64,000 nt of DNA, from contig NZ_CAOS01000013.1 in NCBI RefSeq assembly GCF_000315365.1, forward strand, positions 1 to 64,000, given 5' to 3'. The stretch comes from Desulforamulus hydrothermalis Lam5 = DSM 18033 (GTDB lineage: Bacteria > Bacillota > Desulfotomaculia > Desulfotomaculales > Desulfotomaculaceae). Positions 4,488-48,855 of this stretch are shown here, piece by piece. The notes beneath the pieces were generated by a model, which had not been told where the DNA came from, ran no database searches, and saw only the letters and a program-made list of their open reading frames with translations. The translations under genes were made by a program, and so were the position numbers. Numbering within the stretch: position 1 is the stretch's first letter; each line of letters begins with the position of its first letter.

Positions 4488-5501
4488 ATGAAAACCATGC
4501 GCGCAGCGGTTATTGAAGGACCCCATAAAATAACATTACAAGAAGTACCTTATCCTACCCCTGGCCCCGGCCAGGTGGTGGTAAAGGTAGAAGCCTGCGG
4601 TATTTGTGGCACGGATTATCATATTTTAGAAGGAGATTTTCTTTCACCCTACCCGCTGATTCCCGGCCATGAGTTTTCCGGTACAGTTTATGAGCTGGGC
4701 GAAGGTGTAGAAAACTGGCAGGTGGGCGAAAGAGTTGCCGTAGATCCCTCGGTATACTGCGGTGAGTGTTATTACTGCTTAAGCAACCAGGGCAATATGT
4801 GCCAAAAATGGAATGCTGTCGGCGTTACATTAAACGGCGCCTTTGCGGAATATGTGGCAGTACCGGCGAAAAACCTTTACCGGTTGCCGGAGAACATGAA
4901 CTTTCAGCAGGGTGCCTTTGTGGAGCCCCTTTCCTGCGTGGTTTATGCCATGCGGCGCCTGAATATTCGTTTTGGTGATAAGGTATTGCTGTTTGGCGCC
5001 GGTCCTATGGGTTTGCTTTTGCTGCAGGCGGTTGTTAAGGGTGGCGCTTCGGAAGCGGTGGTGGTTGATTTGGCTGAGGATAAACTGGCCAAAGCAAGGC
5101 AGCTGGGCGCCCATAAAACCTTTTTGGGTACGGCAGGGCTTCAGGAAGCCTACCCGCTGGGGTTTGACATTGTTATAGATGCCACCGGGGTACCGGCGGT
5201 GATAGAGAACATGTTCCGCTTTGCCGGCAACCGCGCCAAGATTATGCAGTTTGGTTGCGCTCCTAAAGATGCCAAAGTTTCCGTCAGTCCTTTTGACATT
5301 TATAATAAAGACTGGGAGATTCTTGGTACCATGGCACTGCTGTTTACCTTTCATCCGGCAGTAAATCTTTTGAAGAACGGGGTAGTAGTAGCCGATCCGT
5401 TGACAACCAGGGAGATCAGTTTGGATGAATTTCCTGCTTACCTGTCTCAGCCCAAGGACAGTAAAGATTTAAAGGTCCTGGTGTGCCCCTGGAAGAAATA
5501 G
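4488..5501 (+). CDS. Zinc-dependent alcohol/polyol dehydrogenase
   Basis: Second medium-chain zinc dehydrogenase, 337 aa, clearly diverged from its neighbour. Motifs: GICGTDYHILEGD (catalytic Cys), IPGHEFSGTV, structural zinc CGECYYCLSNQGNMC and the dinucleotide fold LFGAGPMGLLLL. The ATG follows AAGGAGG. It resembles arabitol- or sorbitol-type dehydrogenases and probably feeds a ketose to the kinases downstream. Its stop lies 11 bases before the xylulokinase start. Confidence 0.87.
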   Translation: MKTMRAAVIEGPHKITLQEVPYPTPGPGQVVVKVEACGICGTDYHILEGDFLSPYPLIPGHEFSGTVYELGEGVENWQVGERVAVDPSVYCGECYYCLSNQGNMCQKWNAVGVTLNGAFAEYVAVPAKNLYRLPENMNFQQGAFVEPLSCVVYAMRRLNIRFGDKVLLFGAGPMGLLLLQAVVKGGASEAVVVDLAEDKLAKARQLGAHKTFLGTAGLQEAYPLGFDIVIDATGVPAVIENMFRFAGNRAKIMQFGCAPKDAKVSVSPFDIYNKDWEILGTMALLFTFHPAVNLLKNGVVVADPLTTREISLDEFPAYLSQPKDSKDLKVLVCPWKK

Positions 5502-5512
5502 GAGGGCCTTGT

Positions 5513-7045
5513 ATGCAGAGTTTATTTTTAGGCATTGATATTGGTACTACAGGGGTTAAGGCTCTGGTGATGGATGAGCAGGGTCGGGTGGTAGCCCAGG
5601 CAACCAGGGAATACCCCTTGCATGTTCCCCGTCCCGGTTGGGCAGAGCAGAACCCGGAGGATTGGTATAAGGCTGCCTGTGGGGCAATTGCCACGATTAT
5701 CAGTAAAGGTATTTCGCCCGGCCAAATACAAGGGATCGGCTTAACCGGCCAAATGCACGGTTCGGTCTTCCTTGATGCACAGGGGAAAGTTATTCGTGAG
5801 GCAATCCTCTGGTGTGACCAGCGCACTGCGGATGAATGCCGGCAAATTACCGACCTGGTGGGAGAAAGCAAACTCATTGAGCTGGTCAGCAACCCGGCGC
5901 TGGCTGGTTTTACAGCACCAAAGATATTATGGCTGCGCAATCATGAACCGGAAAACTACAAGCGTGTGGCCAAGGTACTCCTGCCCAAGGACTACATTAG
6001 CTGGCGTATGACCGGTGTTTTTGCCACCGATGTATCAGATGCCAGCGGTATGCTGTTGCTGGATGTAGTTAACCGCAAGTGGAGCTCAGAAATGCTGGCG
6101 GCTCTGGAGATTCCCGCTGCCTGGTTGGCAGAAGTCTTTGAAAGTCCCGATGTGGTGGGGCGGGTAAGCGCCCGGGGGGCTGCTGAAACGGGGCTGCCTG
6201 AAGGAATTCCGGTAGTGGCCGGTGCCGGCGACAATGCCGCAGGTGCCGTAGGCAACGGGATCATCAGTCCCGGCATGGCCACAGCCAGTTTGGGAACTTC
6301 CGGCGTTGTTTTTACCCCCAGTCAGACTCCTGCCGTAGACCGGGCCGGCCGGCTGCACACCTTCTGTCATGCCGTACCGGGTCAGTGGCACCTGATGGGA
6401 GTTACCATGGCAGCCGGCGGCTCGCTGCGCTGGTACAGAGATACCTTTGCCGGTGAAGAAAGGGCTGTGGCTCAATTAACCGGCAGAGATCCCTATGAAC
6501 TGATGAGTGATGAAGCAGCATTGATAGAACCAGGTGCCGATGGATTGATCTTTCTGCCTTATCTTTCCGGGGAACGCACACCCCATGCAGATCCCTTGGC
6601 CAGAGGAGTGTTCGTCGGCATGAATTTAAAACACACCAAGGGACACTTTGTGCGTTCTATTATGGAAGGAGTGGCCTTTAGTTTAAAAGATACGCTGGAG
6701 ATTATGTCCGGTTTGGGCATTGCCTTAAATGATTTGCGGATTACCGGCGGCGGCGGCCGCAGTGCGGTATGGCGCCAAATCCTGGCGGATGTGTTTAACA
6801 TGCCTTTGCAAGTGATGGAAAACTCTGACGGACCGGCTTACGGAGCAGCTATCTTGGGCGCTGTGGGCGCCGGATGCTGGCAAAGTGTGACCGAAGCGGT
6901 GGCTGCTACCTGCAGCCGCCAGCAGCTGCAAGAGGTGGTGCCCATCCCGCAAAACGCAGCCCGCTACCAAAAAATTTACCAAATTTACATTGACACTTAC
7001 CCGCCCCTGCAACCTCTGTTTAAGCGGCTAAGTGAAGTAAACTAG
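5513..7045 (+). CDS. xylB: Xylulokinase (FGGY family)
   Basis: ATP-dependent sugar kinase of 510 aa. The N-terminal FGGY domain starts FLGIDIGTTGVKALVMDEQG. LTGQMHGSVFLD matches the xylulokinase signature, and ITGGGGRSAVWRQILADVF is the C-terminal nucleotide-binding segment. The ATG at 5513 is chosen because GGAGGG lies at 5501-5506; the in-frame GTG at 5483 would place the start before that site and inside the previous gene. It should phosphorylate D-xylulose, or a similar ketose, made by the dehydrogenases. Xylulose-specific motifs make xylB the best name, but related ketoses are possible. Confidence 0.88.
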   Translation: MQSLFLGIDIGTTGVKALVMDEQGRVVAQATREYPLHVPRPGWAEQNPEDWYKAACGAIATIISKGISPGQIQGIGLTGQMHGSVFLDAQGKVIREAILWCDQRTADECRQITDLVGESKLIELVSNPALAGFTAPKILWLRNHEPENYKRVAKVLLPKDYISWRMTGVFATDVSDASGMLLLDVVNRKWSSEMLAALEIPAAWLAEVFESPDVVGRVSARGAAETGLPEGIPVVAGAGDNAAGAVGNGIISPGMATASLGTSGVVFTPSQTPAVDRAGRLHTFCHAVPGQWHLMGVTMAAGGSLRWYRDTFAGEERAVAQLTGRDPYELMSDEAALIEPGADGLIFLPYLSGERTPHADPLARGVFVGMNLKHTKGHFVRSIMEGVAFSLKDTLEIMSGLGIALNDLRITGGGGRSAVWRQILADVFNMPLQVMENSDGPAYGAAILGAVGAGCWQSVTEAVAATCSRQQLQEVVPIPQNAARYQKIYQIYIDTYPPLQPLFKRLSEVN

Positions 7046-7058
7046 GGGGTGCGTCTGT

Positions 7059-8036
7059 ACGGATATTATTGCCATTGGGGAAGCCCTGATTGATTTTATC
7101 CCCACCACCCCGGGCAAAGGGTTGGCAGATACGCCGGCCTTTGAGAAACGCCCGGGAGGTGCGCCGGCCAACGTAGCGGTGGGGATTGCCCGGTTGGGAG
7201 GCAGTTCAGGTTTTATCGGGAAATTTGCTGACGATGAATTCGGTCGGTTTTTGCTTAAGACATTGGAAGAAAACCAGGTAGATACACAGGCAGTTGTTAT
7301 AACACAGGAAGCTCCGACAGGTTTGGCCTTCGTAACCCTGAAGGATAACGGAGAACGGGAATTTATTTTTTATCGCCGGCCCTGTGCCGATATCCTGCTG
7401 ACCGCTGATGAGATTGCCGTTTCGTATATTGAACAAGCTAAAGTTCTTCATTTCGGGACTGTATCGTTAATCACTGAGCCAGGTCGCAGTGCCACTTACC
7501 ATGCAGTGCGGCAGGCCAGGCAGGCGGGCAAAATTATTTCTTTGGATGTTAACCTGCGAGAAGCCCTCTGGCCTTCCCTGGCAGCAGCCCGGCAAGAGAT
7601 TCGCACAGCCTTGCGCTTGGCGCATATTGTGAAGGTTAGCGGGGAGGAATTAGCCTTTATTACTGAAAATAACGAAAGCCTTGAAGAAGCTGCCAAACAA
7701 ATACTGGAGCTGGGTTCCGACTTGGTTTTGGTAACCCTGGGAGCGGCCGGGTGTTATGTCCAAACAAAACACTTGGCAACCGCTGTTAAAAGTATTGCCG
7801 TGCATTCGGTGGACACCACCGGAGCGGGCGATGCTTTTACGGCAGCTGTGCTGACGCGACTGGTGGAAGCCGGACTGCATGATCCCGGCCGGATTCACAA
7901 CATATCTTTAAGTACCCTGGAGGAAATTTGTACCTTTGCTAATATTGCAGGAGCTTTGACTTGCACCCGAAAAGGGGCCATACCTGCCTTGCCTACCCGA
8001 AAAGAGATAGCAGAACGAATGGGTTTGGCGGAATAA
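7059..8036 (+). CDS. PfkB-family fructokinase, start codon problem
   Basis: Ribokinase/PfkB-type carbohydrate kinase, probably fructokinase, about 325 aa. It carries the N-terminal motif DIIAIGEALIDF, the sugar-binding RPGGAPANVAVG and the catalytic signature DTTGAGDAFTAAV near the C-terminus. The frame is open from a stop at 7038-7040, yet the conserved N-terminus (from 7062) lies upstream of the first canonical start, TTG at 7122, which would remove about 20 essential residues. The CDS is therefore drawn from ACG 7059, nine bases after AGGGGG (7044-7049). A likelier reading is one extra G in the GG at 7061-7062: removing it gives CTG or GTG starts leading to LYDIIAIGEAL. This could be a sequencing error or a real frameshift. 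Confidence 0.75.
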   Translation, partial: TDIIAIGEALIDFIPTTPGKGLADTPAFEKRPGGAPANVAVGIARLGGSSGFIGKFADDEFGRFLLKTLEENQVDTQAVVITQEAPTGLAFVTLKDNGEREFIFYRRPCADILLTADEIAVSYIEQAKVLHFGTVSLITEPGRSATYHAVRQARQAGKIISLDVNLREALWPSLAAARQEIRTALRLAHIVKVSGEELAFITENNESLEEAAKQILELGSDLVLVTLGAAGCYVQTKHLATAVKSIAVHSVDTTGAGDAFTAAVLTRLVEAGLHDPGRIHNISLSTLEEICTFANIAGALTCTRKGAIPALPTRKEIAERMGLAE

Positions 8037-8040
8037 CCTC

Positions 8041-8290
8041 AAGCAAGTAAAGGGCAGCTCCTGTGGAGCAAGTTGGTTTTCTGATCCCCTGACAGCGACT
8101 TGGCGAAGCGCCGGCAACCGCATTTGCTGAGCAAAAGGATAAATCGGGCCGGCACCACAGAACGTGGGTGCCGGCCGAACCTGGCCGGAATGGCGCCCCT
8201 AATAGCAATTAGTGCTGTTGCCGGTGCGTAGACCGGAGCTAAGGGGATCATAAACTTCCGGCAACCATTACTTGAGTGCTTCCTGAAAGG
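8041..8290 (+). ncRNA. Structured element copy 1 (unrecognised RNA or dispersed repeat)
   Basis: The gap before hxlB is dense in complementary segments: CAAGTAA 8044-8050 with TTACTTG 8268-8274, TGATCCCCT 8082-8090 with AGGGGATCA 8242-8250, CCGGCAAC 8111-8118 with GTTGCCGG 8217-8224, and a perfect 10-bp hairpin 8147-8156/8167-8176. They nest, so one long folded RNA is plausible. Bases 8076-8148 match 46748-46820 at 57 of 73 positions without gaps, and 8157-8188 match 46830-46861 at 25 of 32. Two base pairs of the hairpin change in a compensatory way between copies. I do not recognise a known riboswitch or ribozyme. It could be the hxlB leader or a mobile palindromic repeat. Confidence 0.6.
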
Positions 8291-8310
8291 CATTAAAGGA
8301 GGGAAGTTCC

Positions 8311-8868
8311 ATGCAATTGACAGCCTTAAAACAAGATGTTATTACAGAACTGGCCGCTGTTTATAACCAAGTAAAAGATGAAGCAATAATGAATTTGGTG
8401 GAGGAAATTGTTCGGGCTAAGAGAGTGTTTATTTACGGACTGGGCCGGGAGCGATTAATGCTGCAGGCTTTTGCCATGCGACTTATGCACCTGGGGGTGC
8501 AGGTATATATGGTGGGCGATGTAACCACGCCCGGAATCAGTGAAGGGGACCTGTTTATTACCAGTTCCGGCACCGGCCACTTATCCACTGTGGCAGCTTT
8601 ACAAAGCATTGCCCAAAATGCCAAGGCGCGCATTGTTTTCATCACCGCTCACCCGGAAGCTCCGCTTCCCCGGGCTGCCGACGCCGTAATTAAGATTCCT
8701 GCTCAAACAATGAAAGACAGCAGCCAAAATAAAACCTCCCGGCAACCCATGGGCTCCCTTTTTGAACAGGCCCAACTGCTCTTGCTGGATACGGCAGTTA
8801 TCCTGTTACAAGAACGGTTGCAACAAAAGGACGAAGATATGGAAAAACGCCATACAAACCTTGAATAA
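8311..8868 (+). CDS. hxlB: 6-phospho-3-hexuloisomerase
   Basis: SIS-domain isomerase of 185 aa, the usual HxlB length. It interconverts D-arabino-3-hexulose-6-phosphate and fructose-6-phosphate in the ribulose monophosphate route. The phosphosugar-binding motif ITSSGTGHLSTV, the MRLMHLGVQVYMVGD segment, QPMGSLFEQ and the C-terminal HTNLE ending all resemble HxlB. AAAGGAGGGAAG precedes the ATG. Its usual partner HxlA (hexulose phosphate synthase) is not in the window. Placement at the end of a polyol operon suggests a role in hexulose-phosphate handling rather than formaldehyde fixation. Confidence 0.88.
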   Translation: MQLTALKQDVITELAAVYNQVKDEAIMNLVEEIVRAKRVFIYGLGRERLMLQAFAMRLMHLGVQVYMVGDVTTPGISEGDLFITSSGTGHLSTVAALQSIAQNAKARIVFITAHPEAPLPRAADAVIKIPAQTMKDSSQNKTSRQPMGSLFEQAQLLLLDTAVILLQERLQQKDEDMEKRHTNLE

Positions 8869-8906: not shown

Positions 8907-10136
8907 TTACAGCAAGGAAACAGCGCCGGTGATAATGCTTGCTGCCGTACAAACCCGGTTGCGCCCCTCGTTTTTTGCCCTGTACAGGGCCTGGTCTGCT
9001 TGCTCAATCAGGCTTTGCGGCGAACCAGACAGGGATGGAATGGTGGCGGCAACCCCTAGACTGACTGTAACATACTTGCTGCAGTGGGAACCAAGGTGGG
9101 GAATACAACGGTCTTCAATGCTCTGACGCAGAATTTCGGCCGCCGTGTACGCACTTTTTAAATCAGTATTCGGCAGCACCACGGCGAACTCCTCGCCGCC
9201 ATACCGGGCAACCAAACCGGCAGACTGGTGCAGAGAATCCCGGAGGCTGGCAGCCACTTGACGCAAGCAGGCGTCCCCGGCCTGGTGGCCGTAGGTGTCA
9301 TTATAATTCTTAAAATAGTCGATATCCACCATAATTACTGCCAGCCAGCTAAGTTCACCGGCAGCCTGCTGCCATCGGCGGTGGATAAATTCATCGAAAG
9401 ATCGCCGGTTTGCTATACCCGTTAATGCATCGTGGGTGGAAAGCTGTTGTAATTGAATATTGTAGTCGGACAACTGTTTTGCTTCCCGCCGGAGGAGTCG
9501 TATCATCGGGCGAAATATTAACAGGGCTTCTAAAGTTAACACCAATAGGGTTACAATCAAAACAGTTAACGCAAAATTCTGTATTTTGCGGTTGGCTTTC
9601 TCGCTTTCTGCCTGGTATTGGGATACCGCTTTATCAATTGTTTGCAGCAGTTCTCCTTGAGCGGCGGACAGGATATATTGGAGGCGGGGATTATTGTAAG
9701 ACAGGTTGTTGTTTGTTTCCTTTAACAAAGCGCGTGATGCGGCAATGAATGTCTGCATTTTTATGTCTAAACGGTCGGGTGGTTCAAAATATATAGCTCT
9801 CATTTGCGCTGAAAGATGACTTGGCAGGTGCCTGGCGGCATCGCCGTGAATTAGCCCTTGATGAGTTTTTTCCAATAAGGTGATGACTTCAGTTAGTTCC
9901 CGGCGAATTTTTTGCTGTTGCTCGGGGCGTTTGCTTTCAACCAACTGCAGGCTAAGCAGGGCAGCTTTTTGCGTCAGCATGCGCTGGCGGCCGCTTAGAT
10001 TTATAACGGCGGCACTGACTTCTTGCGTTTCAATTATTTGATATAAATTCAGATAACCCGCTGTTGCCAGCAAGGCAAGAGTTGTTAAGGCATAAAAGCA
10101 CTTTCTTTGCAGGTTTCTAACTGATGCCGGATTCAT
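8907..10136 (-). CDS. Membrane diguanylate cyclase with PilJ-like sensor
   Basis: Protein of 409 aa. A membrane segment near residues 13-33, an extracytoplasmic region with GRQRMLTQKAALLSLQL typical of PilJ/NIT-like sensor domains, a second membrane segment near 185-210, and a C-terminal GGDEF domain. The active site reads ARYGGEEFAVVLP, so it should make c-di-GMP from two GTP. The inhibitory I-site RxxD expected nine residues before GGEEF is replaced by QSAG, so product inhibition may be absent. It converges on hxlB. The window also has a c-di-GMP riboswitch and pilus ATPases with putative c-di-GMP-binding domains, which makes a shared signalling role attractive. Confidence 0.88.
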   Translation of the reverse strand: MNPASVRNLQRKCFYALTTLALLATAGYLNLYQIIETQEVSAAVINLSGRQRMLTQKAALLSLQLVESKRPEQQQKIRRELTEVITLLEKTHQGLIHGDAARHLPSHLSAQMRAIYFEPPDRLDIKMQTFIAASRALLKETNNNLSYNNPRLQYILSAAQGELLQTIDKAVSQYQAESEKANRKIQNFALTVLIVTLLVLTLEALLIFRPMIRLLRREAKQLSDYNIQLQQLSTHDALTGIANRRSFDEFIHRRWQQAAGELSWLAVIMVDIDYFKNYNDTYGHQAGDACLRQVAASLRDSLHQSAGLVARYGGEEFAVVLPNTDLKSAYTAAEILRQSIEDRCIPHLGSHCSKYVTVSLGVAATIPSLSGSPQSLIEQADQALYRAKNEGRNRVCTAASIITGAVSLL

Positions 10137-45243: not shown

Positions 45244-46692
45244 TTGGATAAAAATGATTTAAAAGAAGTGCTTAGTGTTGCTTTAGCTAACGGCGGCGAC
45301 TTTGCAGATATTTTTCTGGAAGAAAAACAAACCACCGGCATTGGCCTGGAAGCCGGGCGCATTGAGCGGGTTAATTCCGGCCTGGATGCCGGGGCGGGCA
45401 TCCGGGTGCTGTCCGGCGAGGCCACTGCCTATGCCTACACCAATGACACCAGCAAGCAGGGGTTACTGGCAGCGGCTAAGATTGTCAGCCACGCTGCCCA
45501 GGGCGGCCCAAAGGATTTGCAGCTGGATCTTACCACCCTTAAACCGCTGGTTGATTTCCGGATTAAAACCCGCCCGGAGAATGTTTCCACCCAGGCTAAA
45601 GTAGAGCTGGTAAAAAGAGTGGAGCAGGCCGCCCGGGCGGTTGACCGTGAGAAAATAAAGCAGGTTATTGTGGGTTACGGCGATACCGTACAAAAAGTAA
45701 CCGTTGCCAACAGTGAAGGAACTTATGTGGAAGACGAGCGGGTGCGCACCCGTCTGATGGTAAATGTGGTGGCGGCGGAAAACGGCAATATCCAAACGGG
45801 CTATGATGCCATAGGCAGTCATGCCGGCTTTGAAATTTTTGCCGACTGCGATCCGGAACAATTTGCCCGGTCGGCGGCCCACCGGGCGGTTAAAATGCTC
45901 ACGGCCCTGCCGGCCCCGGCCGGCAAAATGCCGGTGGTGATGGCCGGGGAAGCCGGCGGGACAATGGTTCACGAAGCCTGCGGCCACGGCCTGGAGGCCG
46001 ACCTGGAACAAAGACAACTGTCGGTTTACGCCGGCAAAAAGGGCCAGCCGGTGGCCAGCCAATTAATCACGGTTGTTGATGATGCCACCCTGCCCAACCG
46101 TTACGGTTCTTACCGTTTTGACGATGAAGGGGTTCCCTCCCGCAAAGTAACCCTGATTGAAAAGGGTATTTTAACAGATTATCTTTACGACCGCCTTACT
46201 GCCGGCAAAGAAAAACGGGAATCCAACGGTCACGGGCGCCGGGAGTCCTACCAGCACAAACCCCTGCCCCGTATGGCCAACACTTATATTGCCCCGGGCA
46301 AGGAAGACCCGGACAAAATCATTAAAGATTATAAAAGCGGCCTGCTGGTGAAAAAAATGGGCGGCGGACAGGTAAATACCACCACCGGGGATTTTGTCTT
46401 TGATGTGGCTGAAGGCTACTTAATCCAAGACGGCGAAATCGGCCCGCTGGTGCGCGGCGCCACCCTGACCGGCAACGGCCCGGAGGTTTTGCGGATGGTG
46501 GAACGGGTGGGCTCCGACCTGGGCTTTACCATCGGCACCTGCGGCAAAGACGGACAGGGTGCCCCGGTTTCGGATGCCCAGCCAACCATGGCTATCAAAG
46601 AATTAATCGTGGGGGGGACGGCTCACGGGTCTGCTGACAAGCAGCTGAGCCGCCGGTTTACTGCCGGTTATGGCAAAATACGGAGAATATAG
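45244..46692 (+). CDS. tldD: TldD-family metallopeptidase
   Basis: Protein of 482 aa in the TldD/PmbA peptidase family. The zinc motif HEACGHGLEAD is intact near residue 240. TldD normally works as a heterodimer with TldE (PmbA), which is not adjacent here. The start is TTG 45244 because GGGGGGAAGGA lies just before it; TTG 45241 and GTG 45226 are in-frame alternatives. A terminator hairpin follows. It stands between the two pilus loci without an obvious functional link. Confidence 0.88.
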   Translation: MDKNDLKEVLSVALANGGDFADIFLEEKQTTGIGLEAGRIERVNSGLDAGAGIRVLSGEATAYAYTNDTSKQGLLAAAKIVSHAAQGGPKDLQLDLTTLKPLVDFRIKTRPENVSTQAKVELVKRVEQAARAVDREKIKQVIVGYGDTVQKVTVANSEGTYVEDERVRTRLMVNVVAAENGNIQTGYDAIGSHAGFEIFADCDPEQFARSAAHRAVKMLTALPAPAGKMPVVMAGEAGGTMVHEACGHGLEADLEQRQLSVYAGKKGQPVASQLITVVDDATLPNRYGSYRFDDEGVPSRKVTLIEKGILTDYLYDRLTAGKEKRESNGHGRRESYQHKPLPRMANTYIAPGKEDPDKIIKDYKSGLLVKKMGGGQVNTTTGDFVFDVAEGYLIQDGEIGPLVRGATLTGNGPEVLRMVERVGSDLGFTIGTCGKDGQGAPVSDAQPTMAIKELIVGGTAHGSADKQLSRRFTAGYGKIRRI

Positions 46693-46698
46693 CACACC

Positions 46699-46720
46699 GA
46701 AACGGCCGCAAGGCCGTTTC
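46699..46720 (+). terminator. Hairpin after tldD
   Basis: GAAACGGCC, loop GCAA, GGCCGTTTC: a perfect 9-bp stem seven bases after the tldD stop. The T-run is weak (TGATTGC). Confidence 0.65.
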
Positions 46721-46741
46721 TGATTGCAGACAAAGAAAAGT

Positions 46742-46960
46742 CAGGGGGTTTTATGATCCCCTGCCAGCCACTTGTCGAAGCACCGGTCACAGCACTTGAT
46801 GTGCGAAAGGAGCCATTGGGGTGGTGCTCACAGGATGCGGGCGCCAGCCGATTCTGGCCGGGAGAGCCCGTTTGAGGCGACCCCAAGGGCCACCGTAGCG
46901 AATTGGCGGCAGAACTTGCATTTTTTACAAAGTTTTTACCCCGGGGTAATCAGGCAAAGT
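46742..46960 (+). ncRNA. Structured element copy 2
   Basis: Second copy of the element seen at 8041-8290. Blocks 46748-46820 and 46830-46861 align with 8076-8148 and 8157-8188. The hairpin 46819-46829/46839-46849 forms 10 of 11 pairs (three G-U) around an ACAG-containing loop. Two pairs differ from copy 1 in a compensatory way (C-G to T-A, A-T to G-C). A local stem CAGGGG/CCCCTG at 46742-46763 replaces the long-range pair of copy 1. It lies on the same strand as, and just before, the c-di-GMP riboswitch of pilus locus 2. Family unknown. Confidence 0.6.
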
Positions 46961-47024
46961 AGGAATTTTAAATAGTGTGACGAAAATAATTACCAACAAA
47001 GCAATATATAACACACGTATTACA

Positions 47025-47100
47025 AAGGCAAACTCTTTGAAAAAAGAGGACGCAAAGCCACGGGCCTAAGGACCTTAGTCTATGGCGGCCGGGTTGCCTT
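47025..47100 (+). promoter_or_regulatory. c-di-GMP-I (GEMM) riboswitch
   Basis: P1 pairs AAGGCAA 47025-47031 with TTGCCTT 47094-47100. P2 is CTCTTT-GAAA-AAAGAG with a GNRA tetraloop. The conserved ligand pocket reads GGACGCAAAGCC. CCTAAG (47065-47070) and TATGG (47081-47085) form a perfect 11-nt tetraloop receptor in the second helix, and CCGGGTTGCC closes the fold. All the hallmarks of class I c-di-GMP riboswitches are present. It precedes pilB of pilus locus 2 by about 80 bases. Confidence 0.92.
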
Positions 47101-47114
47101 AGGAATGTAGCTGT

Positions 47115-47148: not shown

Positions 47149-47178
47149 CATTTTCGTCTTAAAACAGGGGTAATGGCA

Positions 47179-48855
47179 ATGAAACTAACCCGCAGTTTTT
47201 TAGGAACCTGGTTGGTTAACGAAGGAATTATCACCCAGAAACAGCTGGAGGAAGCCCTGGCCTATCAAAAATCAAATAAAGACAAGTCGTTGGTGCTGGG
47301 TAAAGCCCTGGTGCAGCTGGGTTATTGTTCGGAAGACGATATAGCCGGGGTAATTGCCAAGCATGCCGGGGTACCCTTTGTGTCCCTGGAAAAATACAAC
47401 CTTGACCCGGCGGCGCTGGCAGCCTTGCCGCTGGAAGCCGTTAAGCGTTACCGGGCGCTGCCCATCGGATTTGCCGAAGGCAAGCTGGTGGTGGCTATGC
47501 AAAAGCCCACCGACATCATGGCCATTGATGATTTGCGGGTGCTGGCCGGCTACGAGATTAAACCGGTATTTGCGCCGGACAGTGAACTGGAAGTGGCCAT
47601 TGAAAAATACAGCCGCAGCAGCATGGAGTTTACCCAAACAGAAGAAGAAGCGGCGCCGGTCACTGAATTAATAGCCGAACCGGAAGATGCCGGCCAGCCG
47701 GCGGTGCAGCTGGCCAACCTGATCCTGACCCAGGCGGTCAGTGCCAATGCCAGCGACGTGCATATCGAACGCTATGAAAAACGCATGCGGGTTCGCTTCA
47801 GAATTGACGGCGTGCTGCACGATATTATGGAGCCCCCTGTGAAAATGCATGCTTCCCTGGTTTCCCGCATTAAAGTGATGGCTAATATGGACATTGCCGA
47901 CCGGCGCATCCCCCAGGACGGCCGCATGTCCGTAAAAATAGAAGGAAAATCCATTGATATAAGGGTAGCTTCCCTGCCCGCCAGCTTCGGAGAAAGGTTA
48001 ACCCTCCGGCTGCTGGACAGTTCGGCCCGCCGCATCAGCCTGGAGGAACTGGGGCTGGCCCCGGCGGTATTGGAACGCTTCCGGGAAGCAATTAAACTGC
48101 CTTATGGTTTTATCCTGGTCACCGGCCCCACCGGCAGCGGCAAAAGCACCACCCTGTATGCCGGCCTGAATGCGGTGGACCGGGTGAGCAAGAATGTCAT
48201 TACCGTGGAAGACCCGGTGGAATACCGGATGGAAGGCATTAACCAAATTCAAATTAACCCGCAGGCCGGCCTTACCTTTGCATCCGGGCTGCGTTCCATA
48301 CTGCGCAGCGATCCTGACGTTATCATGGTGGGTGAAATTCGCGACCATGAAACAGCCAAAATTGCCATTGAATCTGCCATGACCGGCCACATGGTCTTTT
48401 CTACCCTGCATACCAACGATGCCCCGGGGGCCATCAGCCGGTTAACAGAGATGGGCATCGAACCTTTCTTAACGGCTTCTTCGCTGGTGTGTGTGCTGGC
48501 CCAGCGTTTGGCCAGGATCTTATGCAGCCACTGCAAGGAAAAGATTGAACTGACCCCGCAAGACCTGGCCCATGTACCCGATTTTCCCATTGACCCCGGG
48601 AGCAACCGGGTAACCCTATATAGGCCCAGGGGCTGCATGCGCTGCAGCAATACCGGCTACCGGGGCCGGACAGGCATTTATGAATTGCTTTTTGTCAGCG
48701 ATACAATCCAGCGTTTAACCCTGGCCCGGGCCTCGGCCAGGGAAATTAAACAAGCAGCCCTGGCCGAGGGTATGGTTACCCTGCGCCAGGACGGCTTGCT
48801 CAAGGTGAAACAAGGCATTACTTCCCTGGAGGAAGTGTTGAGGGTGGTCGTTTAA
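47179..48855 (+). CDS. pilB: Type IV pilus extension ATPase, locus 2
   Basis: PilB of 558 aa, full length. The N-terminal MshEN domain has both repeats (LGTWLVNEGIITQKQLEEAL and VLGKALVQLGYCSEDDIAGV) that bind c-di-GMP in homologues. Then Walker A GPTGSGKSTT, Asp box VEDPVEY, Walker B DPDVIMVGEIRD, STLHTNDAPGA, and zinc cysteines CSHC/CMRC. ATG 47179 is preferred to ATG 47173 because AGGGG is then eight bases upstream. The gene sits directly behind the c-di-GMP riboswitch. Confidence 0.94.
   Translation: MKLTRSFLGTWLVNEGIITQKQLEEALAYQKSNKDKSLVLGKALVQLGYCSEDDIAGVIAKHAGVPFVSLEKYNLDPAALAALPLEAVKRYRALPIGFAEGKLVVAMQKPTDIMAIDDLRVLAGYEIKPVFAPDSELEVAIEKYSRSSMEFTQTEEEAAPVTELIAEPEDAGQPAVQLANLILTQAVSANASDVHIERYEKRMRVRFRIDGVLHDIMEPPVKMHASLVSRIKVMANMDIADRRIPQDGRMSVKIEGKSIDIRVASLPASFGERLTLRLLDSSARRISLEELGLAPAVLERFREAIKLPYGFILVTGPTGSGKSTTLYAGLNAVDRVSKNVITVEDPVEYRMEGINQIQINPQAGLTFASGLRSILRSDPDVIMVGEIRDHETAKIAIESAMTGHMVFSTLHTNDAPGAISRLTEMGIEPFLTASSLVCVLAQRLARILCSHCKEKIELTPQDLAHVPDFPIDPGSNRVTLYRPRGCMRCSNTGYRGRTGIYELLFVSDTIQRLTLARASAREIKQAALAEGMVTLRQDGLLKVKQGITSLEEVLRVVV

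Follow-up and report, generated by a model that had tools for sequence, protein, structure and literature searches.

The window analysed here, a stretch of 64,000 nucleotides from Desulforamulus hydrothermalis Lam5, contains two similar segments (copy 1 and copy 2) that a sequence-only reading had presented as an unassigned structured RNA family of two copies. We asked what these segments are, and what role, if any, their RNA might play. The evidence below leads us to conclude, with a probability of about 0.87, that both are relics of a ~265-bp, terminator-targeting, non-autonomous IS1182 MITE that carries the TwoAYGGAY RNA.

Two structured segments in the window

Both RNA-like copies lie where they had been placed, and direct reading of the sequence, folding and BLAST confirmed that they are homologous and structured. 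The fold of 8041-8310 was more stable than its dinucleotide shuffles (z = -3.7; 0/200 shuffles equally good), as was that of 46692-46930 (z = -3.0; 1/200), and the compensatory pairs reported earlier are present in the window sequence (C8150-G8173 versus T46822-A46846, and A8154-T8169 versus G46826-C46842). A covariance model, R1, built from 15 related sequences with both window copies left out, recovered both of them: copy 1, at 8101-8234, scored 33.9 bits (E = 6.5e-6), and copy 2, at 46773-46915, scored 53.6 bits (E = 2.5e-10). The model gave no other significant match across the window. The features are as follows:

8067..8264 (+): copy 1, span similar to the dispersed repeat (BLAST, 70-75% to ~40 genomic copies, best E 5e-31)
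8083..8249 (+): copy 1, outer stem GATCCCC...GGGGATC around the core, common to full-length copies (sequence, fold, copy consensus)
8101..8234 (+): copy 1, degenerate TwoAYGGAY-type core; hairpin 1 kept with its loop GGA changed to GAA, hairpin 2 lost (model R1, loop table)
8147..8176 (+): copy 1, hairpin 1 with the compensatory changes given above; helix 7 of the family structure (sequence)
46700..46719 (+): terminator hairpin AAACGGCC-GCAA-GGCCGTTT, 3' of tldD (which ends at 46692) and abutting copy 2 (sequence)
46720..46736 (+): copy 2, degenerate left terminal inverted repeat (TIR) CTGATTGCAGACAAAGA, 13/17 to CAGACTGTAGACAAAGG (sequence versus TIR consensus)
46720..46903 (+): copy 2, right-truncated MITE, 85-89% identity to other copies (BLAST)
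46773..46915 (+): copy 2, TwoAYGGAY-type core with both GGA loops, CACAGGATGCG and GCCGGGAGAGC (model R1, loop table)

The similarity of copy 2 to the other copies ends at 46903, which means that it has lost its right end together with the hairpin on that side; the right part of its enclosing stem is damaged, and both GGA loops are present. By analogy with the 47/52 full copies described below, the hairpin at 46700-46719 reads as the left one of two duplicated target hairpins, the right one having been lost. Copy 1 has unlike end repeats, no clear IS1182-type TIR and no target duplication visible in its flanks. Lacking GGA loops, it looks functionally dead, and judging by its homology to the full copies it likely arose by the same insertion route.

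Copy 1 is flanked by genes for a PfkB-family sugar kinase (7122-8036) and the 6-phospho-3-hexuloisomerase HxlB (hxlB, 8311-8868). It interrupts a sugar operon (5483-8868, +) that comprises xylulokinase, the PfkB-family kinase, copy 1 and the HxlB isomerase, and that is adjoined by a GGDEF diguanylate cyclase gene (8907-10136, -).

A dispersed repeat bounded by inverted repeats

The suggested genome-wide search for further copies was productive. In the D. hydrothermalis genome (2.69 Mb, 16 contigs, 99.94% complete), BLAST placed each query copy at ~40 additional sites, with a best E of 5e-31 for copy 1 and of 9e-62 for copy 2 (identity up to 89%), from 138-139 first-look candidates per query copy. 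The pair is thus real, but as a two-copy family the description fell short, both segments being worn members of a many-copy, small transposable element. Of 60 relatives, one, the sister species G001, has full-length matches, whereas the matches in G009 and further genomes are partial.

Alignment of the copies defined a unit of ~265 bp, a near-palindrome ending in 17-bp inverted repeats of the CAGACTGTAGACAAAGG type, a pattern that occurs 120 times in this genome at <=3 mismatches, compared to 4 times for a control pattern. Shorter derivatives of 54-57 bp and 111-115 bp exist as well, and those without the full core still have good target duplications (for example, 21/21 at L096). One orthologous insertion measures 265 bp in G001 (L061) and 57 bp in D. 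hydrothermalis (L116), indicating that some insertions predate the split of the two species. L095, considered as a longer TIR-bearing element, was rejected, its adjoining ORFs resembling ordinary chromosomal genes and not a transposase. Among the D. hydrothermalis copies, the core diverges by 3.5% and the spacers and TIRs by 8-11%, and the GGA is altered at 5/294 sites; the lower divergence of the core hints at constraint, and subfamily structure could yield the same difference.

The interior of the repeat is TwoAYGGAY

In Rfam scans of the window and of the copies, neither window copy was reported for TwoAYGGAY (RF01731) at the gathering cut-off of 43 bits, and we therefore call them degenerate relatives of this motif. 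Permissive scans of the two copies returned PVT1_3 and CLRN1-AS1, and a sub-threshold hammerhead appeared at 46695-46735 (E 0.25); all were rejected as chance matches. Less worn copies of the repeat did match: the intact copy L015 scored 58.6 bits, and 55 copies in this genome pass the gathering score. The interior of the repeat is thus TwoAYGGAY, a known orphan RNA of unexplained function, matches to which were found in 51/398 sampled genomes of the phylum, often several per genome. The sequence-only reading had itself named two findings that would speak against it, a strong Rfam hit, which was obtained for the 55 other copies and for neither window copy, and many copies with transposon-like ends and no transcript, of which the copies and the ends were found. 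The family is therefore not an unassigned one, and with dozens of copies bearing terminal repeats and target duplications, a stand-alone RNA gene or riboswitch did not hold up either.

The claim that compensatory change reflects RNA-like structure, on the other hand, was substantiated. In the 15 related sequences, 28/44 pairs show changes on both sides; in 39 matches across Clostridia, 95.1% of cells are paired and 42/44 pairs have double changes, with 439 double-change cells, as opposed to 112 in shuffles and <=92 in slid structures, an alignment that leans to the model. In two genomes of an unrelated clostridial family (G090 and G167), the core likewise lies within IS1182-type TIRs and hairpin duplications (for example, 20/20 at L251). 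In most other lineages it is enclosed not by IS1182 ends but by other long palindromes, each particular to its lineage, or it has other repeats nearby.

Several of these occurrences have features of their own. The cores at L204 and L205 (G298) and at L236-L241 (G407) lie close to repeats of REP-type appearance (GAGTCACGGGGACGG or CAGGGGGACAGTCCC), a different carrier of TwoAYGGAY. Distant relatives of the core at L074 (1505-1703) and L063 (1034-1233) have far longer inserts replacing the GGA hairpins, and a 26-bp motif of theirs recurs about a dozen times in G049 and G057. L183 holds two TwoAYGGAY copies on opposite strands, ~430 bp apart (913-1070, -, and 1501-1658, +).

The only Rfam match in the whole window at the families' own thresholds was a c-di-GMP-I riboswitch (47017-47101, +, 85 bits, E 2.3e-15). 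It is located upstream of the gene for a PilB/GspE-type ATPase (47173-48855) with an MshE-like c-di-GMP-binding domain, an arrangement that likely places this ATPase under dual RNA and protein control by c-di-GMP.

Insertions duplicate entire terminator hairpins

Both ends could be measured in 52 copies, 51 from this genome and one from G001. In 47/52, the element is flanked by direct repeats of 15-31 bp that score above all 1000 random flank pairings and mostly abut the TIRs (for example, AAACGCCACCGCTTCGGCTGGTGGCGTTT, 29/29, and CAATCCCTTGATTTTTATCAAGGGATTA, 28/28). The flanking repeats fold below -6 kcal/mol in 91% of cases, compared to 11% of shuffles, and most of them are complete terminator hairpins. 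An A-rich stretch precedes the left repeat and a T-rich stretch follows the right one, the arrangement that should result when a bidirectional terminator hairpin is duplicated and its tracts are not. At L059 and L032 the two terminator repeats differ by compensatory stem changes, and so both hairpins appear to stay functional, suggesting that both are still under selection.

By longest ORF, the elements are oriented to their neighbouring genes as 16 sense, 15 antisense, 16 convergent and 3 divergent. This absence of a sense bias speaks against cis-regulation and agrees with a mobile element that seeks out terminators.

A probable IS1182 partner

The congener G001 harbors a ~1604-bp element with TIRs like those of the repeat (15/17 positions in common) and a 469-aa transposase that matches NCBIfam NF033551 IS1182 (E = 1.3e-136) as well as Pfam DDE_Tnp_1_6 and DUF772. 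In two congeners, hairpin duplications flank the full, autonomous IS1182 copies (5/5 in G008 and 3/3 in G004). Three unrelated IS1182 elements, in Peribacillus, Acetoanaerobium and Cetobacterium, have TIRs of the same type and are flanked by perfect hairpin duplications of 22-24 bp; at a second Peribacillus IS1182 copy (L274) no duplication was seen, and a Thermocaproicibacter IS1182 element sat at the end of its record. The D. hydrothermalis genome has no IS1182 transposase of this type at E <= 1e-10, and so the donor is deduced from the TIR and target type; either the MITEs are stranded in this genome, or the assembly misses the transposase. With TIRs common to autonomous IS1182 elements, no transposase of its own and a target duplication at 47/52 copies, the family fits an IS1182-mobilised MITE, and from the shared TIRs and hairpin duplications we infer that it was mobilised in trans by an IS1182 transposase.

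IS1272, a studied relative of IS1182, deletes its hairpin target instead of duplicating it (PMC5678879, PMC4923244). Such stem-loop replacement was rejected here, given that the hairpin is duplicated and not deleted in the D. hydrothermalis copies, in the congeners G008 and G004 and in three unrelated IS1182 elements. Duplication of a whole hairpin corresponds to the hypothetical 'pathway b' drawn in PMC5678879. In the open-access literature, IS1182 or MITEs combined with terminators or CsrA were not found described, an absence that is weak evidence.

The mechanism that we propose would begin with an IS1182-family transposase that, acting in trans, selects an intrinsic-terminator hairpin as its target. 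The element ends would be joined at both feet of the stem, thereby duplicating the whole 15-31-bp hairpin, as the flanking sequences show. The T tract beside the stem is not part of what is duplicated, and so it stays with the far-side hairpin and is missing from the upstream one; a transcript arriving from either side should therefore pass the hairpin that it meets first, include the RNA and end at the other. The RNA is predicted to form a long stem topped by two hairpins, the loops of which match CsrA sites, and once transcribed it probably binds CsrA.

CsrA-type loops and alternative explanations

In the TwoAYGGAY-type sequences, GGA is found in 38/39 hairpin-1 loops and in 37/39 hairpin-2 loops (copy 1 fails), and the consensus of both loops, CA(N)GGA(Y)G, is the pattern of a CsrA site; the CsrA-site match and a tandem-GA motif were noted for TwoAYGGAY in 2014 (PMC4333381). 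D. hydrothermalis has csrA (C13:312340-312495), as do 49/51 genomes with TwoAYGGAY and 236/347 others (Fisher p = 4.1e-6, a value that ignores shared ancestry and genome type). A CsrA-titrating role of the element RNA is therefore plausible from sequence. In its stronger form, the dispersed copies, lying between duplicated terminators, would be transcribed as parts of 3' UTRs and would jointly titrate CsrA, to the benefit of the host or the element, a reading that extends the MITE explanation and does not exclude it. The loops, the co-occurrence with csrA (kinship ignored), the low divergence of the core and the rarely altered GGA all speak for it, but half of the tandem copies are antisense, such that the neighbour's promoter would not make the RNA, and copy 1 is without GGA. 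On balance we regard it as possible and lean against it. The full proposal, that TwoAYGGAY is a mobile CsrA-binding RNA that IS1182-type MITEs put into terminators, where the hairpin is duplicated, termination is kept and the RNA is transcribed as part of a 3' UTR, its accumulated copies tuning the host Csr system, is offered as a speculative one, and we doubt that it is right in its entirety.

The RNA-like structure itself could be accounted for in other ways. If it acts as DNA, with the palindrome and hairpins serving transposition or replication as single-stranded folds, the covariation would reflect selection on DNA cruciforms. The near-palindrome, the lack of orientation bias and the good target duplications of the short derivatives without full core agree with this; yet the loops and asymmetric internal loops are conserved across unrelated outer contexts, beyond what a palindrome needs, and the same derivatives suggest that the core is dispensable for end recognition, unless they are post-insertion deletions. 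We consider this explanation unlikely. Less likely still is a stand-alone or cis-regulatory, riboswitch-like RNA in two copies (compare the Rfam type 'Cis-reg'), as which the strong covariation and the position of copy 1 5' of hxlB could be read. At the family level it is contradicted by the terminal repeats and target duplications that dozens of copies bear, and the nearly equal numbers of sense and antisense tandem contexts also stand against it, as does the score 'cis-reg n' given to TwoAYGGAY by Weinberg 2010 (PMC2864571). No orthologue of copy 1 was found before hxlB in other genomes, for example before the hxlB orthologue in L263. That the flanking direct repeats are convergent or gene-converted terminators, and not target duplications, is hardly credible: pairs with compensatory stem changes, such as those of L059 and L032, would suit it, but many pairs match exactly over 20-29 bp, loops included, and adjoin the TIR with no gap, and independent full-length IS1182 copies display the same pattern.

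Significance and comparison with known systems

As members of a transposable element that carries TwoAYGGAY, the two copies make the supposed new RNA gene the cargo of a mobile element, a warning that covarying repeats within one genome may be such cargo and not RNA genes. The orphan motif TwoAYGGAY gains a concrete carrier and a testable role. Furthermore, dozens of sites reveal a mode of targeting in which the transposase copies an entire terminator hairpin, so that termination on both sides of the element should survive the insertion.

The repeat resembles the IS1182 family, including IS1272 and TnSha1 (PMC5678879, PMC4923244), in the transposase family of its putative NF033551 partner and in its hairpin and terminator targets. 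However, all or part of the stem-loop is lost when IS1272 or TnSha1 inserts, whereas the subgroup with TIR CAGACTGTAGACAAA duplicates the whole of it. Its interior shares with TwoAYGGAY RF01731 (Weinberg 2010, PMC2864571) the two-hairpin core, the GGA loops and the enclosing stem, but the motif as published had no known carrier, and here it makes up the interior of a high-copy MITE. Like BOX, RUP, SPRITE, Coxiella QMITEs and other bacterial MITEs and small repeats (reviewed in PMC10969869), it is short, non-coding, TIR-bounded and intergenic, and such repeats can yield sRNAs; its duplicated terminator-hairpin target and its cargo RNA with double CsrA-type sites are features for which no counterpart is mentioned in the passages of that review consulted here. 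Finally, its paired GGA-bearing hairpin loops recall CsrA-sequestering sRNAs of the CsrB/RsmZ type, from which it differs in not being a promoter-driven gene and in offering only two predicted sites per copy, though across dozens of copies.
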